A DNA stretch of 64,000 nucleotides, taken from NCBI RefSeq assembly GCF_009831455.1, contig NZ_WOWO01000004.1, positions 124,001-188,000 on the forward strand. Direction: 5' to 3'. Shown here piece by piece: positions 16,910 through 59,794 of the stretch. Under the pieces are notes generated by a model. The model made no database searches. It had not been told where the DNA came from and saw only the letters and a list, made by a program, of their open reading frames with translations. Numbering within the stretch: the first letter of the stretch is position 1; each line of letters begins with the position of its first letter. The translations under genes and the position numbers were made by a program. Source of the stretch: Salinirussus salinus. Its GTDB lineage: Archaea > Halobacteriota > Halobacteria > Halobacteriales > Haloarculaceae.

Positions 16910-17381
16910 GTCACAGACGACCGAGCGGGCGTGTATATCCCTTTTCATCCATGAACCGGGTGGCGCCCCGCACTTCCCGGCGACCGACCACGCGTGCGGA
17001 ACGTGACCCGGCAGGTGGCGCGCGCTGTCGCGGCTCCGGCCGCGACAAGCGCCGTGCGAGGGATGAGCGACCGACCAAAGGGAGGGAGCGAATCGGTTGG
17101 GGAGGTATGTGGCGTGCGTTGCGCGAACGGAGTGAGCGCAACGAGGGGGCGAGTAGCGCGGAGCGAAGCTCCGCGGACCGTGCGAGCGGGCCGTGCGCGG
17201 CGCAAAGCGCCGCGATGGCGGGGCGGTGAAACCGCCCCGCTGCCCGCGAGCAGACGGCGCCGGCCGCGAGCACGGGCGGGACTGGAAGGGGCGAGTGTTT
17301 CTGCTATTTACAGTCGTACTGTCACAACCAAGTCCCCACGAAGCGCACAAGAGGTTTACCGGCTGACGCCGACCCCGAAAT
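16910..17381. other. 472-base intergenic region with promoters and hairpins
   Basis: No coding sequence is supported. The left end holds the promoter of the minus-strand nucleotidyltransferase. The middle holds five perfect hairpins. The right end holds an AT-richer stretch and a TATA-like GGTTTACC at about 17354-17361, some 27 bases ahead of the regulator at 17382. Confidence 0.7.
17026..17240. repeat. array of five perfect hairpins
   Basis: Hairpins occur at 17026-17047 (8-bp stem, 6-base loop), 17117-17143 (8-bp stem CGTTGCGC/GCGCAACG, loop GAACGGAGTGA), 17157-17175 (8-bp stem, GAA loop), 17196-17214 (8-bp stem, AAA loop) and 17218-17240 (10-bp stem, GAA loop). The stem sequences differ from each other. 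The short purine loops are typical of stable folded RNA or of DNA cruciforms. No U-tract follows. See the findings for the loop shared with the array at 28020. Confidence 0.8.
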
Positions 17382-27287: not shown

Positions 27288-27461
27288 ATGAACACGCCGA
27301 AGGACCTGAGCTCCTACATCAGGGTGCTCAAGCTGGCGAGCACGCCCTCCTGGACGGAGTTCTCTCAGGTGGCCAAGATCGCCGGCGCGGGGATCCTGCT
27401 GGTGGGACTCGTCGGCTTCCTGATCTACGTCTTCATGTACATCATGCCGGGTGGTCCCTGA
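27288..27461 (+). CDS. secE: preprotein translocase subunit SecE
   Basis: Encodes 57 residues, beginning MNTPKDLSSYIRVLKLASTP. An amphipathic helix and a conserved turn (TPSWTEFSQVAKI) precede one membrane helix (about 31-53), the form of archaeal SecE/Sec61 gamma. It completes the SecYE channel for protein export. The stop codon overlaps the ATG of spt5 by one base, the classic secE-nusG arrangement. The 97-base gap upstream shows A-rich sequence (GATAGAAAA) at about -30. Confidence 0.92.
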   Translation: MNTPKDLSSYIRVLKLASTPSWTEFSQVAKIAGAGILLVGLVGFLIYVFMYIMPGGP

Positions 27462-27898
27462 TGGGTATCTACGCCGTCAAGACCACCGCGAGCCAGGAGC
27501 GGACCGTCGCGGACATGATCATGAACCGCGAGGAGGAGTCGGTCCACGCCGCGCTGGCGCCGGATTCGGTCACCTCATACGTGATGGTCGAGGCCGACGA
27601 CCCCGCGGTCTTCGACCGCATCCTCGACGAGATCCCACACGCCAACGGCGTCGTGCCGGGCGAGACCTCCATGTCCGAGGTCGAGCACTTTCTCTCGCCG
27701 ACCCCCGACGTCGAGGGGATCGCCGAGGGCGACATCGTCGAACTCATCGCCGGCCCCTTCAAGGGCGAGAAGGCCCAGGTCCAGCGCATCGACGAGGGCA
27801 AAGACCAGGTGACCGTCGAACTCTACGAGGCGACCGTTCCCATCCCCGTCACCGTGCGCGGCGACCAGATCCGCGTGTTAGATTCCGAAGAGCGATAG
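27461..27898 (+). CDS. spt5: transcription elongation factor Spt5
   Basis: Encodes 145 residues. An NGN domain (IYAVKTTASQERTVADMI through SMSEVEHFL) is followed by one KOW domain (IAEGDIVELIAGPFKGEKAQVQRID). Archaeal Spt5 pairs with Spt4 on the RNA polymerase clamp and raises processivity. Older annotation calls it NusG. It is translationally coupled to secE. It is the last gene of this run; a set of hairpins follows within 70 bases. Confidence 0.95.
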   Translation: MGIYAVKTTASQERTVADMIMNREEESVHAALAPDSVTSYVMVEADDPAVFDRILDEIPHANGVVPGETSMSEVEHFLSPTPDVEGIAEGDIVELIAGPFKGEKAQVQRIDEGKDQVTVELYEATVPIPVTVRGDQIRVLDSEER

Positions 27899-27966: not shown

Positions 27967-28073
27967 GGGCGCGCGGTTCATCGCGCGCCCACGGGGAAGG
28001 GCAGGCTGACCACGAGCATCCGCGCGAACGGAGTGAGCGCGGTTCACTCGGCGCGACTACAAGGAGCGCCGAG
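27967..28073. repeat. three consecutive hairpins after spt5
   Basis: Perfect stems occur at 27967-27990 (9 bp, GGGCGCGCG/CGCGCGCCC), 28020-28042 (6 bp CCGCGC/GCGCGG, loop GAACGGAGTGA) and 28047-28073 (8 bp CTCGGCGC/GCGCCGAG, loop GACTACAAGGA). The second loop is identical to one at 17125-17135, although the stem differs. They lie between the convergent genes spt5 and the zinc protein at 28149 and could end transcription from both sides. Confidence 0.8.
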
Positions 28074-28084
28074 GTCGTTTTGTA

Positions 28085-28152
28085 CTAAATTTTTGCGAGC
28101 GGGGGTACCGCAGCGCCCCCGGCGCGAGGATACCCCCGAAGTAAAAATTTAG
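28085..28152. repeat. 68-base interrupted palindrome with AT-rich outer arms
   Basis: Outer arms CTAAATTTTT (28085-28094) and AAAAATTTAG (28143-28152) are perfect complements. Inner arms GGGGGTA (28101-28107) and TACCCCC (28131-28137) also pair, around a GC-rich centre. The right arm contains the stop codon of the minus-strand gene. Read from either strand, the long hairpin ends in a T-run, so it may act as a two-way terminator; a small mobile element is the alternative. Confidence 0.75.
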
Positions 28153-28442
28153 TTGTTCTCGAGCCGGTCGACGACCTCGCGGATGTCGGCCTCGGCCTCG
28201 ATGGCCTCCTTGACGCTCTCGCGGCGCCGGACGTCGCCGGCGTCGGCGTCGTAGGCTCGGACGTACTCGGCGCGGGAGTGCTCGTCGAAGGCGTGACGGA
28301 TCGCGAAGTAGCCGTCGGGGACGACCGCGCCACAGACCTTGCACTCGATGCGGTCGTGGGCCGTGGCCTGGTGAACGATGAGGTCCTCGACGCGGTCGAA
28401 GACTTCCTCGTCGCCCTCGATCGCACATTCCCAGCGCGCCAT
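28149..28442 (-). CDS. small C2H2-type zinc-finger protein (DUF7565-like)
   Basis: Encodes 97 residues. An N-terminal WECAIEG element and the unit CKVCGAVVPDG...IRHAFDEH give a C2H2-like zinc site (Cys34, Cys37, His49, His54), with an extra HQATAH histidine pair before it. The C-terminal half is acidic and helical. The family is common in haloarchaea, recalled as DUF7565 (unverified), with no known function. The stop codon is embedded in the palindrome above. It is 72 bases from gnd on the same strand. Confidence 0.78.
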   Translation of the reverse strand: MARWECAIEGDEEVFDRVEDLIVHQATAHDRIECKVCGAVVPDGYFAIRHAFDEHSRAEYVRAYDADAGDVRRRESVKEAIEAEADIREVVDRLENN

Positions 28443-49636: not shown

Positions 49637-49709
49637 GGGCTCGTGGGTTAGCCTGGTATACTTCGGGCCTTGGGTGCCCGTGACCGCGGTTCAAATCCGC
49701 GCGAGCCCA
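49637..49709 (+). tRNA. tRNA-Pro (anticodon UGG)
   Basis: A complete 73-base cloverleaf. The acceptor stem is GGGCTCG/CGAGCCC with discriminator A. The anticodon stem CGGGC/GCCCG encloses the loop CTTGGGT with TGG at 49671-49673. The T arm is CGCGG-TTCAAAT-CCGCG. No CCA is encoded and there is no intron. It lies alone between the exporter gene and a small membrane protein; no integrase or repeat of its 3' end is visible nearby. Confidence 0.97.
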
Positions 49710-54102: not shown

Positions 54103-55557
54103 TCAGCGGAAGCGGTTGCGGCCCTCTTCGAGCCGGGTCATGAGGCGGTCACGACCCCACTCGTAGGCCTCCTGCACCGAGTCCGAGCCGGTGACGACGC
54201 GGTTGACCATCTCGCCGTGGAACCACTGACGCTGCACGTACAGGAACACCGGGTCGTTGACGTTCGACTCGGGCACCTGGCCGTAGTGCTCCCCGAAGTG
54301 GACGTTCTGGATTTTCACCAATTCGTCGAGGAGCTGCTGGTTCTCGCCTTGGTCCCAGAAGCCAAAGCCCTGGAAGGTGTCGCTTTCGAGGATGTCGGCG
54401 TAGATGGGGAGGAACCGGGTGGGCTCCTGCTGGTACATGTTCGCCGACCGTTCGAGGCTGCTGCCGTAGCAGTACTCCATCCACTGGCGGGCGCCGGGGG
54501 TGTTGTCCCCGCCCGCGAAGATGTGGTGGCCGTCCGGCGTCGGCTCGTACAGCCAGGAATCGCCCTTGCTGACCCCGCCCTCTTCCCAGTAGGGGTTGAA
54601 CGCGGTCTTGGTGTTGTAGGCGATCTCCGGGATGTCGGAGGCGGCGGCGATGCCTGCGGGCCAGTGGTTGAGGTGGTACTGCTGGGCGAACTGCCCGCCG
54701 AGCCAGTTCGAGATCGACGACGACCAGCCCAGCGATGTCGGGTCCGGCGAGTACTGGGAGATGTCCTTGAAGAACTGCAGCAGCGTCGTGACCTCTTCCT
54801 CCGGGAAGTAGGCCTCGACTTCGTTGCGGGCGTCGGGGTCCTTCCAGCGCACGCCGACCCCAGGGACGCCCATCTGGGACAGGTAGACCTGGAACTCGTC
54901 CTGGCTTTTGCCGACCTTCTTGCCGGCCAGCCCGTACCCCCGGATGTCCAGGTCGGACTCGTCGATCACCCGCGCGTTCTCCAGCAGTTGCGCGAACGAG
55001 GTGGGTACGTCAAGCCCGAGTTCCTCGTAGACGTCCTCCCGGTAGTGGAAGTTCGACACGTAGTAGCCGTGGGGCACCTGCCAGATGTCGTCGTCCACCG
55101 TCAGCGGGGTCGAGAGGAGTTCACCGTTGGTCGATTCGGCAGCCTCGACGACCCCGTTGGTCGTCGCGAGCCCGTCGGTCGACCAGACGTCGGCCACCTG
55201 GTCGAACGTCGACGTGTTGATGTCCGGGGGGTTGCCGGACTGGATCAGTGTCGCCAGCCGGTTTTCCTGTTGCCCGGACATCCCCGAGTACTCGATGTTC
55301 ACGCCGATGTCCGTCTCGTCGGTGAACGAGGAAGACAGGCTGTCCCACTTGGCCTGCCACGGTTCGTTGTTGTAGTCCGTCAGCATGAACACGTCAGGCA
55401 ACTGCGTCGGGTCGCCCCCGCCGCCGTTGCCGCCGTTACCGTTGCCGCCCCCGTTGCCACCGCCACCGAGACAGCCGGCCATCATCGCCGCTACTCCCGC
55501 GCCCGTCCCTTGCAGCACCCGCCGTCGGCTGGTATCGCTGAGCTGTTTCCTGGTCAT
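54103..55557 (-). CDS. sugar-binding lipoprotein, copy 1
   Basis: Encodes 484 residues from ATG 55557. The twin-arginine lipoprotein signal (TSRRRVLQGTGAG...MAGC) is followed by a Gly/Asn linker (GGGNGGGNGNGG). The mature part is a family 1 extracellular binding protein: SSFTDETDIGVNIEYSG, FDQVADVWSTDGL, and TRFLPIYADILE near the end. It shares most of its length with the neighbour at 55733, including long identical runs such as the region around QQENRLATLIQ. A GTG three codons upstream is an alternative start. It captures the sugar outside the cell and delivers it to the permeases. Confidence 0.93.
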   Translation of the reverse strand: MTRKQLSDTSRRRVLQGTGAGVAAMMAGCLGGGGNGGGNGNGGNGGGGDPTQLPDVFMLTDYNNEPWQAKWDSLSSSFTDETDIGVNIEYSGMSGQQENRLATLIQSGNPPDINTSTFDQVADVWSTDGLATTNGVVEAAESTNGELLSTPLTVDDDIWQVPHGYYVSNFHYREDVYEELGLDVPTSFAQLLENARVIDESDLDIRGYGLAGKKVGKSQDEFQVYLSQMGVPGVGVRWKDPDARNEVEAYFPEEEVTTLLQFFKDISQYSPDPTSLGWSSSISNWLGGQFAQQYHLNHWPAGIAAASDIPEIAYNTKTAFNPYWEEGGVSKGDSWLYEPTPDGHHIFAGGDNTPGARQWMEYCYGSSLERSANMYQQEPTRFLPIYADILESDTFQGFGFWDQGENQQLLDELVKIQNVHFGEHYGQVPESNVNDPVFLYVQRQWFHGEMVNRVVTGSDSVQEAYEWGRDRLMTRLEEGRNRFR

Positions 55558-55563
55558 ATCGGT

Positions 55564-55582
55564 CACGTCACTGTGTGACGTG
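55564..55582. promoter_or_regulatory. candidate operator, binding-protein copy 1
   Basis: CACGTCACTGTGTGACGTG is a perfect 8-bp inverted repeat with a 3-base spacer. It covers the predicted transcription start, about 7 bases ahead of the ATG, so a bound repressor would block initiation. Confidence 0.65.
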
Positions 55583-55600
55583 TTGCCAGTGAGTGGGGTC

Positions 55601-55610
55601 GTTAATAAAT
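55601..55610 (-). promoter_or_regulatory. TATA box, binding-protein copy 1
   Basis: On the minus strand ATTTATTAAC, preceded by GAAG. It is followed about 27 bases downstream by the operator palindrome. Confidence 0.65.
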
Positions 55611-55732
55611 CTTCGTCCGATTTGTGCTGATTTTACATGATTGGGTGTGCGGCCGGTCATCCCAGGGACAGACGAGTGCGCCAGCGGCGGCTGTTCGGGG
55701 ACGAAACGCGAGGAAGATACCGCGAACTGGGG

Positions 55733-57178
55733 TTAGCGGAAGCGGTTGCGACCCTCTTCGAGCCGGGTCTCGAGGCGGTCGCGACCCCACTCGTAGGCCT
55801 CCTGCACCGAGTCCGTACCCGTGATGACGCGGTTGATCAGCTCGCCGTAGAACCACTGCCGGGTGACGTACAGCGCCACCGGGTCGTTGAGGTCCGACTC
55901 GGGCACCTGGCCGTAGTGGTCACCGATGATGGTCTCCTGGGTGTACTGCAGCTGCTCCAGGAGCTTCTGGTTCTCGCCCTGCTGCCAGAAGTCGTAGCCG
56001 GTGAAGGTATCGCTGGTGAGGATGTCCTCGTAGATGGGGAGGAACCGGGTGGGCTCGGCCTGGTAGATGCCCGCGGTCCGTTCGAGGCTGTCGCCGTAGA
56101 CGTACTCGAGCCACTCCCGTGCGCCGGGGGTGTTGTCCCCGCCCGCGAAGATGTGGTGGCCGTCGACCGTCGGGTCGAACAGCCAGGAGTCGCCCTGGCT
56201 GGCGCCACCCTCTTCCCAGTAGGGCAGGGGCGCGATACCGGTGTTGTAGGCGACCTCCGGGATGTCGGAGGCGGCGGCGATGCCCGCCGGCCACGTGTTC
56301 AGGTGGTACTGCTGGGCGAACTGCCCGCCGAGGTAGTTCGAGATCGACGACGACCAGCCCAGCGACGTCGGGTCCGGTGAGTACTCCGAGAGCTGGTTGA
56401 AGAACTCAAGCAGCGTGGTGATCTCCTCCTCGGGCCACCAGACCTCGAGTTCGTTGCGTGCGTCGGGGTCTTTCCACCGCAGGCCGATGGTGGAGACACC
56501 CATCTGACCCAGGTAGGACTGGAACTCGTCCTGGCTCTTGCCGGTCTTCTGGCCCGCCAGCCCGTACCCCCGGATCTCGATGTTCGAGTTGTCGATCGCC
56601 CGCGCGTTGTCGATGAGTCCCTGGAAGGACGTCGGAACGCTCAGGCCGAGTTCCTCGTAGACGTCCTCCCGGTAGTTGAACGTCGAGGTGTAGTAGCCGT
56701 GGGGCACCTGCCAGATGTCGTCGTCGACAGTGAGCGGGCTGGCGATCAGCTCGCCGTTGACCGACTCGGCGGCCTCCACCACCTCGTTGGTGGTGGTGAG
56801 CCCGTCGGTCGACCAGACGTCGGCCACCTGGTCGAACGTCGACGTGTTAATGTCCGGGGGGTTGCCGGACTGGATCAGCGTCGCCAGCCGGTTTTCCTGT
56901 TGCCCGGACATCCCCGAGTACTCGATGTTCATCCCGATGTCCGTCTCCTCCGTGAACGAGCCGGACAGGTCCTCCCACTGGGACTGCCACGGCTCGTTGT
57001 TGTAGTCCGTCAGCATGAAGACATCGGGCATGTCTGCGGGGTCGCCCCCGCCGCCGTTACCGTTGCCGCCCCCGTTGCCACCGCCGCCGAGACAGCCGGC
57101 CATCATCGCTGCCAGTCCTGCACCTGTTCCCTGCAACACCCGCCGCCGACTCGTACCGCTGAGCTGTTTCCTGGTCAT
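55733..57178 (-). CDS. sugar-binding lipoprotein, copy 2
   Basis: Encodes 481 residues with the same layout as copy 1: Tat lipoprotein signal, Gly/Asn linker and family 1 binding domain. Differences cluster in the middle and C-terminal lobes (for example YTSTFNY against YVSNFHY, and GLRWKDPDARNELEVWW against GVRWKDPDARNEVEAYF), which may alter the ligand. The 3' ends of both genes are also alike. A tandem duplication explains the pair. Copy 2 stands first in transcription order, with its own promoter and operator half-matching copy 1. Confidence 0.93.
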   Translation of the reverse strand: MTRKQLSGTSRRRVLQGTGAGLAAMMAGCLGGGGNGGGNGNGGGGDPADMPDVFMLTDYNNEPWQSQWEDLSGSFTEETDIGMNIEYSGMSGQQENRLATLIQSGNPPDINTSTFDQVADVWSTDGLTTTNEVVEAAESVNGELIASPLTVDDDIWQVPHGYYTSTFNYREDVYEELGLSVPTSFQGLIDNARAIDNSNIEIRGYGLAGQKTGKSQDEFQSYLGQMGVSTIGLRWKDPDARNELEVWWPEEEITTLLEFFNQLSEYSPDPTSLGWSSSISNYLGGQFAQQYHLNTWPAGIAAASDIPEVAYNTGIAPLPYWEEGGASQGDSWLFDPTVDGHHIFAGGDNTPGAREWLEYVYGDSLERTAGIYQAEPTRFLPIYEDILTSDTFTGYDFWQQGENQKLLEQLQYTQETIIGDHYGQVPESDLNDPVALYVTRQWFYGELINRVITGTDSVQEAYEWGRDRLETRLEEGRNRFR

Positions 57179-57181
57179 GGT

Positions 57182-57194
57182 GTCACTGTGTGAC
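57182..57194. promoter_or_regulatory. candidate operator, binding-protein copy 2
   Basis: GTCACTGTGTGAC, a 13-base palindrome, lies 3 bases ahead of the ATG. It is identical to the core of the copy 1 operator and is followed by the same GTG half-extension on one side. Confidence 0.65.
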
Positions 57195-57216
57195 GTGTAA
57201 CGGCAATCGGGGAACG

Positions 57217-57226
57217 TAGATAAATC
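57217..57226 (-). promoter_or_regulatory. TATA box, binding-protein copy 2
   Basis: On the minus strand GATTTATCTA preceded by GAA, with the same spacing to the palindrome as in copy 1. Confidence 0.65.
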
Positions 57227-57234
57227 TTCATTCT

Positions 57235-57697
57235 CACCACGACGCGTTCATGTCGTATATAATGTATAAACTAAGGAATCGTGTTCTAGTTTTCCACACA
57301 CTACGGCGCCATAGCGGTAGGCATTGTGTGCCGTGTTTTGTGGGAACACCAAACAAATATAAGAAGTATGTTATTATTGGGGGAAGCGGACCTGAGAAAA
57401 AACGTTGCTGTAGTTGTTGTCGTGTCACCCCACCGCCTGGCGAGCGGCCGGTGTGGCCTCGCCCGCCACGGTAGGCCGGCAGGAGCGGCCGGGCGCTGTG
57501 TCGTCACCGCGCGCTCGTGTCGCGGGACTCCGTCCTCGTTGCGGTACCCCTTCGTTTCCCCACCACTCCGGTCGCTGCCTGTCGGTTTCGGACCGCGATA
57601 ATCACGTTCACTCCGGTCAGGGTCCGGCGACCGGCGGCGGCCGCCACCCAGCGTGCGAAAGTTCTTGAACGGAGGGGGTCTAAGGATTCCCCAGTCA
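57235..57697. other. intergenic region with AT-rich island upstream of mcm
   Basis: No coding sequence is supported. Bases 57241-57420 are about 42 percent GC, far below the surroundings. They hold several TATA-like tracts (TATATAATGTATAAA near 57256; ATATAAG near 57357) and short inverted elements (TTTTCCACAC at 57290-57299 and TGTGGGAACAC at 57339-57349). From 57430 to mcm the DNA is GC-rich again; TCTAAGG about 28 bases ahead of the mcm ATG is its likely TATA box. Confidence 0.65.
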
Positions 57698-59794
57698 ATG
57701 GCCCGAGCGGAGGACACGGAACTCATCGACGTCTTCGAGGAGTTCTACCGGAGCTACTACCGCAACGAGATCGGGGAGCTCGCCCAGAAGTACCCCACCG
57801 AACAGAAGTCGCTGTACATCGACTGGGGTGACCTGTACCGGTTCGACCCCGACCTGGCCGACGACTTCCGCACCAAGCCCGACCAGCTGCGGGAGTACGC
57901 CGAGGAGGCGCTTCGCCTCTATGACCTCCCCGTCGACGTCTCGCTCGGGCAGGCACACGTCCGCGTGCGCGGACTCCCCGAGTCGACGGAGATCCGCGAC
58001 ATCAGGGCCGACAACCGTGGAGCCCTGCTCTCGGTCCAGGGGATCGTCCGCAAGGTGACGGAGGTCCGCCCGAAGGTGACAAACGCCGCCTTCGAGTGCC
58101 AGCGGTGTGGCACCCTCACCCGCATCCCCCAGTCGGACGGCGACTTCCAGGAGCCCCACGAGTGCCAGGGCTGTGAGCGGCAGGGGCCCTTCCGGGTGAA
58201 CTTCGACCAGTCCGAGTTCGTCGACGCACAGAAGCTGCGGGTCCAGGAGTCCCCCGAGGGGCTGCGCGGCGGGGAGACCCCCCAGGCGATCGACGTCAAC
58301 ATCGAGGACGACATCACCGGCGAGGTCACGGCCGGCGACCACGTCACCGTCACCGGCATCCTCAAACTCGACCAGCAGGGCTCGGACCGCGAGAAGTCGC
58401 CGATGTTCGACACCTACATGACCGGCCTGTCGGTGGAGATCGAGGACGAGCAGTTCGAGGAGATGGACATCTCCGAGAGCGACAAGACCGAGATCGTCGA
58501 ACTCTCGAACGACCCCGAGGTCTACGAGAAGATGGTCGGCGCCATCGCCCCCTCGATCTACGGCTACGAAATGGAGAAGCTCGCGATGGCGCTGCAACTG
58601 TTCTCGGGGGTCACCAAACACCTCCCCGACGGCTCCCGGCTCCGCGGAGACCTGCACATGCTCCTGATCGGGGACCCCGGAACTGGCAAATCGATGCTAC
58701 TCCAATATATTCGACAAATAGCCCCGAGATCAGTGTACACATCGGGGAAAGGATCCTCTGCTGCGGGGCTCACTGCGGCGGCCGTGCGCGACGACTTCGG
58801 CGACGGCCAGCAGTGGACTTTAGAGGCCGGCGCGCTGGTTTTGGCCGACCAGGGGATCGCGGCCGTCGACGAACTTGACAAGATGGCCCCGGACGACCGC
58901 AGCGCCATGCACGAAGCGCTCGAACAACAATCAATTTCCGTAAGTAAGGCAGGGATTAACGCAACGCTGAAAAGTCGGTGCTCCCTGCTGGGCGCCGCGA
59001 ACCCCAAGTACGGCCGGTTCGACCAGTACGAGCCCATCGGCGAGCAGATCGACCTCGAGCCCGCGCTCATCTCCCGCTTCGACCTGATCTTCACAGTCAC
59101 CGACCAGCCGGACCAGGAGGAAGACGCGCGCCTCGCCGAGCACATCCTCCAGACGAACTACGCGGGCGAGCTCAACACCCACCGGACGGAGACGACGGCC
59201 TCGAACTACACCGAGGAGGAGGTCGAGACGGTGACCGAGGAGGTGGCGCCGACCATCGAGCCCGACCTGCTGCGCAAGTACGTCGCCTACGCCAAGCGCA
59301 ACTGCTTCCCGACGATGACCGAGGAGGCCAAAGCCGAGATCCAGGACTTCTACGTCGACCTGCGAGCGGAGGGAACCGGCGACGACGCCCCCGTCCCGGT
59401 CACGGCCCGGAAGCTGGAAGCGCTGGTGCGGCTGGCGGAGGCCAGCGCCCGCGTTCGCCTCTCCGATACCGTCGAGAAGGAGGACGCCGAGCGGGCGACC
59501 GACATCGCCCGGTCGTCGATGGAGGACATCGGAATGGACCCCGAAACCGGGGAGTTCGACGCCGACGTCGTCGAGACCGGCACCTCGAAGAGCCAGCGCG
59601 ACCGCGTGAAGAACATCCTCGACCTGGTCGGGGAGATCGAGGAGGAGTACGACGAGGGCGCGCCGGTCGACGTCGTCGTCGAGCGCGCCGAGGAACAGGG
59701 GATAGAGCCCTCGAAGGCCGAACACGAGATCGAGCAACTCAAACAGAAAGGCGAGGTGTACACCCCGACGAAGGGACACCTCCGGACCACCTGA
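57698..59794 (+). CDS. mcm: replicative helicase MCM
   Basis: Encodes 698 residues from ATG 57698. The N-terminal domain holds a zinc site (Cys134, Cys137, Cys156, Cys159). The AAA+ core has Walker A GDPGTGKS (325-332), Walker B AAVDELDKM and the arginine-finger SRFD. A winged-helix end follows after about residue 620. No intein is present, although the Walker A and sensor regions are encoded by AT-rich, unusual codons (see findings). It forms the hexameric helicase at the fork. The next gene overlaps its stop codon. Confidence 0.97.
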   Translation: MARAEDTELIDVFEEFYRSYYRNEIGELAQKYPTEQKSLYIDWGDLYRFDPDLADDFRTKPDQLREYAEEALRLYDLPVDVSLGQAHVRVRGLPESTEIRDIRADNRGALLSVQGIVRKVTEVRPKVTNAAFECQRCGTLTRIPQSDGDFQEPHECQGCERQGPFRVNFDQSEFVDAQKLRVQESPEGLRGGETPQAIDVNIEDDITGEVTAGDHVTVTGILKLDQQGSDREKSPMFDTYMTGLSVEIEDEQFEEMDISESDKTEIVELSNDPEVYEKMVGAIAPSIYGYEMEKLAMALQLFSGVTKHLPDGSRLRGDLHMLLIGDPGTGKSMLLQYIRQIAPRSVYTSGKGSSAAGLTAAAVRDDFGDGQQWTLEAGALVLADQGIAAVDELDKMAPDDRSAMHEALEQQSISVSKAGINATLKSRCSLLGAANPKYGRFDQYEPIGEQIDLEPALISRFDLIFTVTDQPDQEEDARLAEHILQTNYAGELNTHRTETTASNYTEEEVETVTEEVAPTIEPDLLRKYVAYAKRNCFPTMTEEAKAEIQDFYVDLRAEGTGDDAPVPVTARKLEALVRLAEASARVRLSDTVEKEDAERATDIARSSMEDIGMDPETGEFDADVVETGTSKSQRDRVKNILDLVGEIEEEYDEGAPVDVVVERAEEQGIEPSKAEHEIEQLKQKGEVYTPTKGHLRTT

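Follow-up and report, generated by a model that had tools for sequence, protein, structure and literature searches.

The window, i.e. the whole 64,000-nt stretch of the Salinirussus salinus genome analysed here, contains an spt5 gene and a convergent gene for a DUF7565 protein, with a composite element of several hairpins between them. The features referred to below are as follows (coordinates are those of the window):

17117-17143, plus strand: the other copy of the 11-base motif of hairpin 1, here with a stem of 8 bp; it lies between divergent genes, among further hairpins
27461-27898, plus strand: spt5, the upstream neighbour of the element (gene finder; Pfam domains Spt5-NGN and KOW)
27967-27990, no strand assigned: separate perfect hairpin between spt5 and the element, with a 9-bp stem and a 6-base loop, not of the G·A type
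28014-28019, plus strand: GAGCAT, a short sequence also seen ahead of hairpin 1 in other copies
28020-28042, plus strand: hairpin 1, the subject of this analysis, with a 6-bp stem, tandem G·A mismatches, 2 bp and a GGA triloop
28043-28046, plus strand: TTCA spacer, which recurs in other copies
28047-28073, plus strand: hairpin 2, with an 8-bp stem, tandem G·A mismatches, 2 bp and an ACA triloop
28078-28081, plus strand: terminator-like T tract (T4) after hairpin 2
28084-28152, plus strand: the core, a long hairpin (hairpin 3) reading ACTAAATTTTT ... AAAAATTTAG, with a T tract on each strand
28149-28442, minus strand: convergent gene, DUF7565 (Pfam)

Hairpin 1 reads CCGCGC-GAACGGAGTGA-GCGCGG, with the 11-base motif at 28026-28036, and the same 11 bases sit on a different stem at 17117-17143 (CGTTGCGC-GAACGGAGTGA-GCGCAACG), so that the initial annotation was right about one sequence being carried by two hairpins. 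Hairpin 2 (CTCGGCGC-GACTACAAGGA-GCGCCGAG, 28047-28073), which had likewise been pointed out as a neighbour with another 11-base loop and an 8-bp stem, is present and follows the same plan. What had to be corrected is the view of these 11 bases as an open loop, as they are internally structured: a GA dinucleotide, two paired bases, a triloop (usually GNA), the two pairing partners and a second GA, which yields tandem G·A mismatches around a 2-bp helix. Written in columns, GAACGGAGTGA is GA, AC, GGA, GT, GA and the motif of hairpin 2 is GA, CT, ACA, AG, GA; in both, the outer dinucleotides form G·A and A·G mismatches, and two Watson-Crick pairs close the triloop. The mismatches are probably of the sheared type, because their context is mostly 5'-YGAR-3'. 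With RNA parameters, ViennaRNA folded all three window hairpins (17117, 28020, 28047) into this G·A plan on the plus strand, while with DNA parameters the 11 bases were left open in both GAACGGAGTGA hairpins and paired in hairpin 2. Two further observations concern the window beyond the element: the divergent intergenic region around the 17117 motif (16990-17270) is dense with perfect hairpins (AAA, GAA and TCCG loops), and at 55000-57100 a gene is present in two similar copies at a distance of about 1.63 kb, with the same hairpins at 55179 and 56809 and motif matches at 55022/56652 and 55367/56997, which from its sequence looks like a tandem gene duplication.

Within the window alone, the excess of such structures is modest. 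GAACGGAGTGA occurs twice exactly, matches with at most two mismatches number 14 against 24 expected, and there are 6 loops of 3-15 nt which end in GA on both sides and have a stem of 6 bp or more, compared with 1-6 in ten Markov controls. With more sequence, the counts go well past anything expected by chance: the exact GAACGGAGTGA loop was found 22 times in 2.68 Mb, 14 times on a stem of at least 5 bp, while shuffled loops averaged 0.8 occurrences, 0% of them with such stems. The initial annotation had reasoned that frequent occurrence of the loop without paired flanks would make the pairing a matter of chance, and this holds in part, as 8 of the 22 exact loops lack a stem of that length. The whole genome of S. 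salinus contains 13 copies of GCGAACGGAGTGAGC and none of its reversed control; perfect stems reach 6 bp or more in seven of these (eight if L085 and L091, with 6 bp each, are both included), the stem lengths being 3 bp in L089, 2 bp in L081, L084, L087 and L092, and 6-8 bp in the other eight (7 bp in L093). GACTACAAGGA on its own is unremarkable (three occurrences in 2.68 Mb, one with a stem), and hairpin 2 belongs to the family by architecture, not by sequence.

The pairing itself was assessed on 278 distinct sites that match YGA-N-CGNAG-N-GAR, a pattern which does not require pairing, in 3.09 Mb comprising 80 spt5 loci, 800 kb of the S. salinus genome, 400 kb of the genome G031, the window and smaller loci; part of this set had been fetched through a related pattern or the core pattern, which favours such sites, yet not their pairing. 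The inner pair, formed by the two N positions, was complementary in 81% of the sites, compared with 37% after shuffling (sd 2.5%), with G-C (119), A-T (77) and C-G (27) all in use. The closing pair was formed in 89% (74% shuffled) and outer positions 2 to 6 in 61-81% (26-38% shuffled), declining to 45% (28%) at position 7 and 39% (28%) at position 8, with the signal gone at position 9. Among the 189 sites with intact first pairs, the next two pairs are of the Watson-Crick type in 119, whereas 21 have another tandem G·A step in their place. Besides, of 76 tandem mismatches on stems of 6 bp or longer, 29 were GA/GA or its complement TC/TC. The closing pair was C-G or T-A in 110 of 128 distinct hairpins with stems of at least 5 bp, and 98 of these hairpins carried a GNA triloop (GGA 38, GAA 35, GCA 18, GTA 7, others 30). 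Hence, covariation covers the inner pair and six outer pairs, out to about position 7, and selection keeps the pairing, not the sequence of the stem, which bears out the earlier claim of a selected fold with a free stem.

The motif recurs widely in haloarchaea, as the initial annotation had surmised. GCGANCGNAGNGAGC matched 54 of 58 relatives, usually above its reversed control (65 versus 11 in S. salinus itself), and in a phylum-wide draw it matched all 19 genomes of the order, S. salinus included. Outside the order, most genomes had 0-3 matches to the G·A motif. Two genomes from there, G244 and G266, both of genus g55, had 33 and 31 matches compared with 3 and 1 in the controls; judged by sequence, they would constitute a second lineage with the G·A fold.

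Hairpins with a paired inner position lie between genes in 14 of 16 cases in the 800 kb of S. salinus, 15 of 17 in the 400 kb of G031, three of three in the window and 44 of 49 in the 80 spt5 loci, whereas motifs with an unpaired inner position mostly lie inside genes (34 of 36, 12 of 18, four of four and 50 of 62, respectively). Chance or base composition as the whole story is therefore rejected, given that paired motifs are intergenic and unpaired ones coding, and that pairing exceeds the shuffles. When sorted by the type of gap (with genes called by a codon-usage script and tRNA genes left out), 35 hairpins fell into convergent gaps versus 10.8 expected from gap length, 29 into tandem gaps (34.6 expected) and five into divergent gaps (23.6 expected), with 16 not being intergenic; as all spt5 loci have the same setting, they may inflate these counts, but a hand tally of S. 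salinus, G031 and the window only gave 16 convergent, 15 tandem and one divergent. Consequently, the G·A hairpins are tied to the 3' ends of genes, being enriched where two genes converge and depleted ahead of promoters.

This placement bears on the level at which the fold acts. It is conceivable, though rather doubtful, that the G·A hairpin serves as single-stranded DNA or as a cruciform, e.g. in replication, repair or nucleoid binding, and that its position at gene ends is secondary. Tandem G·A mismatches with a C(GNA)G triloop make a very stable DNA fold, and the strand bias relative to genes is weak, with 20 hairpins on the same strand and nine on the opposite one in tandem gaps (8 to 7 in S. 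salinus, G031 and the window alone). A comparison of wobble pairs as an indicator of RNA or DNA gave three G-T versus one A-C, which favours neither. Against a role at the DNA level stand the strong enrichment at 3' ends, the T tracts that accompany many copies (the hairpins of G031 often come without one) and the predicted RNA energies of the window hairpins, which are lower on the GA strand than on the opposite strand. Tandem G·A pairs next to helices are also a hallmark of kink-turns, the sites of L7Ae, which have a 3-nt bulge, whereas the motif described here is symmetric, without such a bulge, and its inner helix has only 2 bp.

The hairpins are part of a larger, ordered arrangement. In the window, the order is GAGCAT, hairpin 1, TTCA, hairpin 2, TTTT, ACTAAATTTTT, hairpin 3 and AAAAATTTAG, while other copies in the same genome read hairpin, TTCA, hairpin, TTTTT, CCCAC, GTTTTTGC, hairpin 3 and AAAAAGTGG, and it varies which of the hairpins are of the G·A type. 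T tracts follow the gene stop both as T4 at 28078-28081 and as T5 in the core, with A5 on the other side. The stretch from 28083 to 28151 is strongly folded (z -5.2 as DNA, -5.9 as RNA), and the right arm of the core extends into the stop codon of the DUF7565 gene. Elsewhere, the core ends in GTGG. Among 90 distinct cores, which were found through T5...A5 and the inner stem only, leaving the arm sequences unspecified, the arms paired in 86% compared with 64% when shuffled (sd 2.3%), as CCAC/GTGG, as CCAT/ATGG in eight cases and as CTAA/TTAG in the window. A strict core pattern matched 44 of 145 genomes, mostly of the family of S. salinus, and its reversed version none; since the pattern misses variants (L010 and L051 were seen by eye), core counts are lower bounds. 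In a phylum draw of 120 genomes, the core matches listed came only from S. salinus and G005, both of that family. The core pattern had no match in the viral sequences of IMG/VR, and Rfam at the gathering score had no family for the element, its only match in the window being a tRNA (49637-49709). In one case (L096, contig C2 of S. salinus, 56760-57890), two inverted composite elements flank several hundred base pairs in which the gene finder called no gene. Separately, a possible MITE with inverted ends like ATACTGCCGGACGTGACT / AGTCACGTCCGGCAGTAT was seen at L055 (10435-10600) and in L027 downstream of spt5.

On inspection of the 80 spt5 loci, the sequence following the GTGG of the core often turned out to be the end of spt5 once more. 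Twelve of 28 elements (from 30 rows of the core pattern, two being reverse readings) are followed, at a distance of 0-7 nt from the core, by the 3' end of the adjacent gene as a direct repeat, one of the 12 being a tRNA-like gene end read by eye, while only three of 591 random sites reached the score of 16. When loci were fetched by the core pattern alone (one per genome), a tail copy lay 0-7 nt after GTGG in 18 of 30, a set that includes one pair of orthologues (L195 and L196) and two repeats of other loci (L203 of L129, L215 of L012). In a scan of genes, eight of 2,561 had a tail copy within 500 nt, compared with none of 1,024 in a gene-internal control; for seven of the eight, the copy starts where a core ends (five by pattern; L055 and L078 judged from their flanks), and six of the eight genes are spt5 because spt5 was the bait. 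The eighth copy (L033, gene ending at 332) is 22 nt long and lies 36 nt downstream without a core. Orthologue surveys gave six tail copies and 12 cores in 80 loci with the gene end for spt5, 11 and 17 in 28 for argF, and nine and 12 in 30 for nuoI; these are not random samples, argF having been drawn from the 30 best protein matches to S. salinus (two without the gene end) and the nuoI genomes being hand-picked, with one row (L267) mis-called. Target genes checked against Pfam encode thiolase, HisE, ETF alpha, ArgF, HMG-CoA synthase, IlvD, PolD DP2, Spt5 and a 4Fe-4S protein, which we take to be NuoI, and those named by eye IleRS, Elp3, GatA, HisH, a methyltransferase and a RecJ-like protein. 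The repeats vary in length from 21 to about 150 nt, with roughly 30-130 bp of gene tail copied, in units of about 140-210 bp. The window's own element has no tail duplication.

These copies might simply be ordinary tandem duplications, i.e. the hairpins would be terminators only, duplicated within one genome through slippage or repair at strong hairpins and trimmed later. We regard this as unlikely, although some loci do fit it: one chromosome of G014 (L216) contains ten tandem cores in 171-bp units of gene tail, terminator and core, most of them identical, G062 has three cores at 182-bp spacing, and the copies of L036, L075 and L078 are 100% identical, terminator included. Left and right tails have diverged, with 68 of 89 differing coding positions at codon position 3 and 65 codons synonymous versus 21 not; this count dropped pairs that had a repeat score below 18, lacked a reading frame with a stop ahead of the core or showed a low third-position bias, and it kept arrays and orthologues, so that the counts are not independent. 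The third-position excess amounts to about five standard deviations (by hand, uncorrected for related loci), while free decay of one copy predicts about half at most; therefore, most of the divergence arose while both tails were coding, and much of it predates duplication.

Also at odds with duplication alone, right copies often run into native downstream DNA without a core. Of the 25 copy-bearing loci examined, four (L022, L247, L264 and L293) have a relative with an empty site: it lacks the core, and what follows the right copy lines up with it directly at its stop codon or only a few bases away; for the other loci, the comparison gave no close core-less relative or only a partial match. Which copy resembles the relative varies. 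At L264, the right copy equals the relative at five of five differing sites and the left copy resembles the tail of another species (four of five), and at L022 the right copy agrees at six of eight; L247 is even (three sites each), the single differing site at L293 (nuoI) agrees with the left copy, as do four of five at L236 (argF), and L055 and L075 show no differences between copies. The stop codon of the right copy equals the relative's, and differs from that of the left copy, in L022, L247 and L264. We thus favour an incoming cassette, with mixed support from this comparison, and the empty sites could also stem from deletion by recombination between the repeats. Finally, the junctions leave a mark of their own. 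Among 62 distinct junctions, 15 were seamless, 27 unresolved and 20 with an insertion; the latter consist of GTGG, three gene bases (four or five in three cases), an inserted C, T, CC or CT and the rest of the gene, the insertion thus being pyrimidine in 20 of 20. It is conceivable that the inserted pyrimidine pairs, over the three bases in between, with the final G of GTGG. The same junction recurs at different loci (e.g. argF in L209 and L227), which again speaks against duplication alone.

Could the element be a non-autonomous transposable element, moved by a transposase of the IS200/IS605 type (Y1) or another one that recognizes hairpins, in the manner of PATEs or REPs? It is palindromic, repeated and intergenic, has a fixed GTGG end and empty sites, and haloarchaea do carry PATEs and small mobile repeats (SMRs); yet, we consider this improbable. 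The Y1 transposase domain (Y1_Tnp) occurs in 29 of 58 genomes and does not track the element, and at E 1e-3 it was absent from S. salinus, G014 and G024, which hold 6, 14 and 11 strict cores, respectively, although the element may be a relic of a REP/Y1 (RAYT) system. A large autonomous form or cargo was sought as a long-range tail copy after the GTGG end, and none was found among 2,616 genes. According to the accessible part of the report on Haloquadratum (PMC3119063), PATEs and SMRs are likewise short, non-coding, palindromic and mobile, with PATEs linked to IS605 palindromes, and they form the nearest mobile match; there, they and IS605 types are reported not to duplicate their target, whereas the element described here copies about 30 to 130 bp of the adjacent gene's tail. 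MITEs and SMRs share terminal inverted repeats with it (the core arms), yet have short target duplications of fixed length or none, as opposed to the variable repeats seen here. REP elements, as far as the accessible text covers them (PMC3733652), are also intergenic palindromes beside a short tag (GTAG), but the tag here, be it GTGG, GTAG, ATGG or TTAG, pairs as the 3' arm of a stem, and the element can be present without a Y1 transposase.

Retro-insertion, whereby a 3' fragment of an mRNA is reverse transcribed and returned by target priming, would fit the fixed 3' end, the variable 5' reach into the gene and the extra pyrimidines at junctions, but it is highly improbable, as retroelements need a reverse transcriptase and its domain (PF00078) matched none of 58 genomes, the control having matched in three of 14. 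Integrative elements that duplicate the 3' end of a gene rebuild that end on one side and leave a fragment on the other, much as seen here; neither an integrase gene nor cargo was seen between the repeats of the present units, and no enzyme was found for the element.

Functionally, archaeal T-tract terminators come closest to this element. Work on Haloferax volcanii (PMC7237163) describes intergenic T tracts and hairpins close to some of the termination sites, one of which brought about termination in a reporter; T tracts with nearby hairpins are common to both systems. The accessible part of that paper reports a T stretch and hairpin clusters, and does not mention the tandem G·A hairpin, the T5/A5 core or the gene-tail copy that characterize the present element; a search of the open-access literature found neither tandem G·A hairpins nor gene-tail copies described in haloarchaea.

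In summary, we consider it somewhat probable (about 0.6) that these hairpins are modules of a haloarchaeal element at gene 3' ends, which serves as a two-way terminator and, in addition, spreads as a gene-tail cassette. The modules share one build: an outer helix, then the G·A and A·G mismatches in tandem, then 2 bp and, in most cases, a GNA triloop. Hairpins 1 and 2 lead into a T tract and then into the long hairpin with its T5 and A5 arms, so that hairpin 2 and its T tract would end spt5 transcription, and the T tract opposite A5 that of the convergent gene. The cassette, comprising gene tail, stop, terminator and a core ending in GTGG, would enter the 3' end of a homologous gene, presumably through homologous recombination, with a seamless left join and a right join fixed at GTGG, leaving the native tail downstream. 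The covarying fold, its place at gene ends, the tail copies at the GTGG end, the empty sites and the tandem arrays are direct observations, whereas termination, the direction of insertion and the part played by homologous recombination are inferred. More tentatively, and with appreciably less confidence, we propose that it represents a new class of selfish, protein-free haloarchaeal elements, each a gene-specific cassette of a gene tail, a terminator and a structured core with a fixed GTGG end, which would enter the 3' ends of housekeeping genes, using the gene tail as attachment sequence, rebuild the gene with their own tail and displace the native one, amplify in tandem at times and leave three bases followed by a pyrimidine as a junction mark.

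If true, the tails of many housekeeping genes in haloarchaea (spt5, argF, nuoI, ilvD and the genes for ETF alpha, HMG-CoA synthase, DNA polymerase D and thiolase) would have come with a mobile terminator, and this would be a new route for exchanging gene ends between species. Tandem G·A mismatches with a GNA triloop would then also provide a defined, testable fold that marks 3' ends in haloarchaea, whose terminator structure is still poorly understood.
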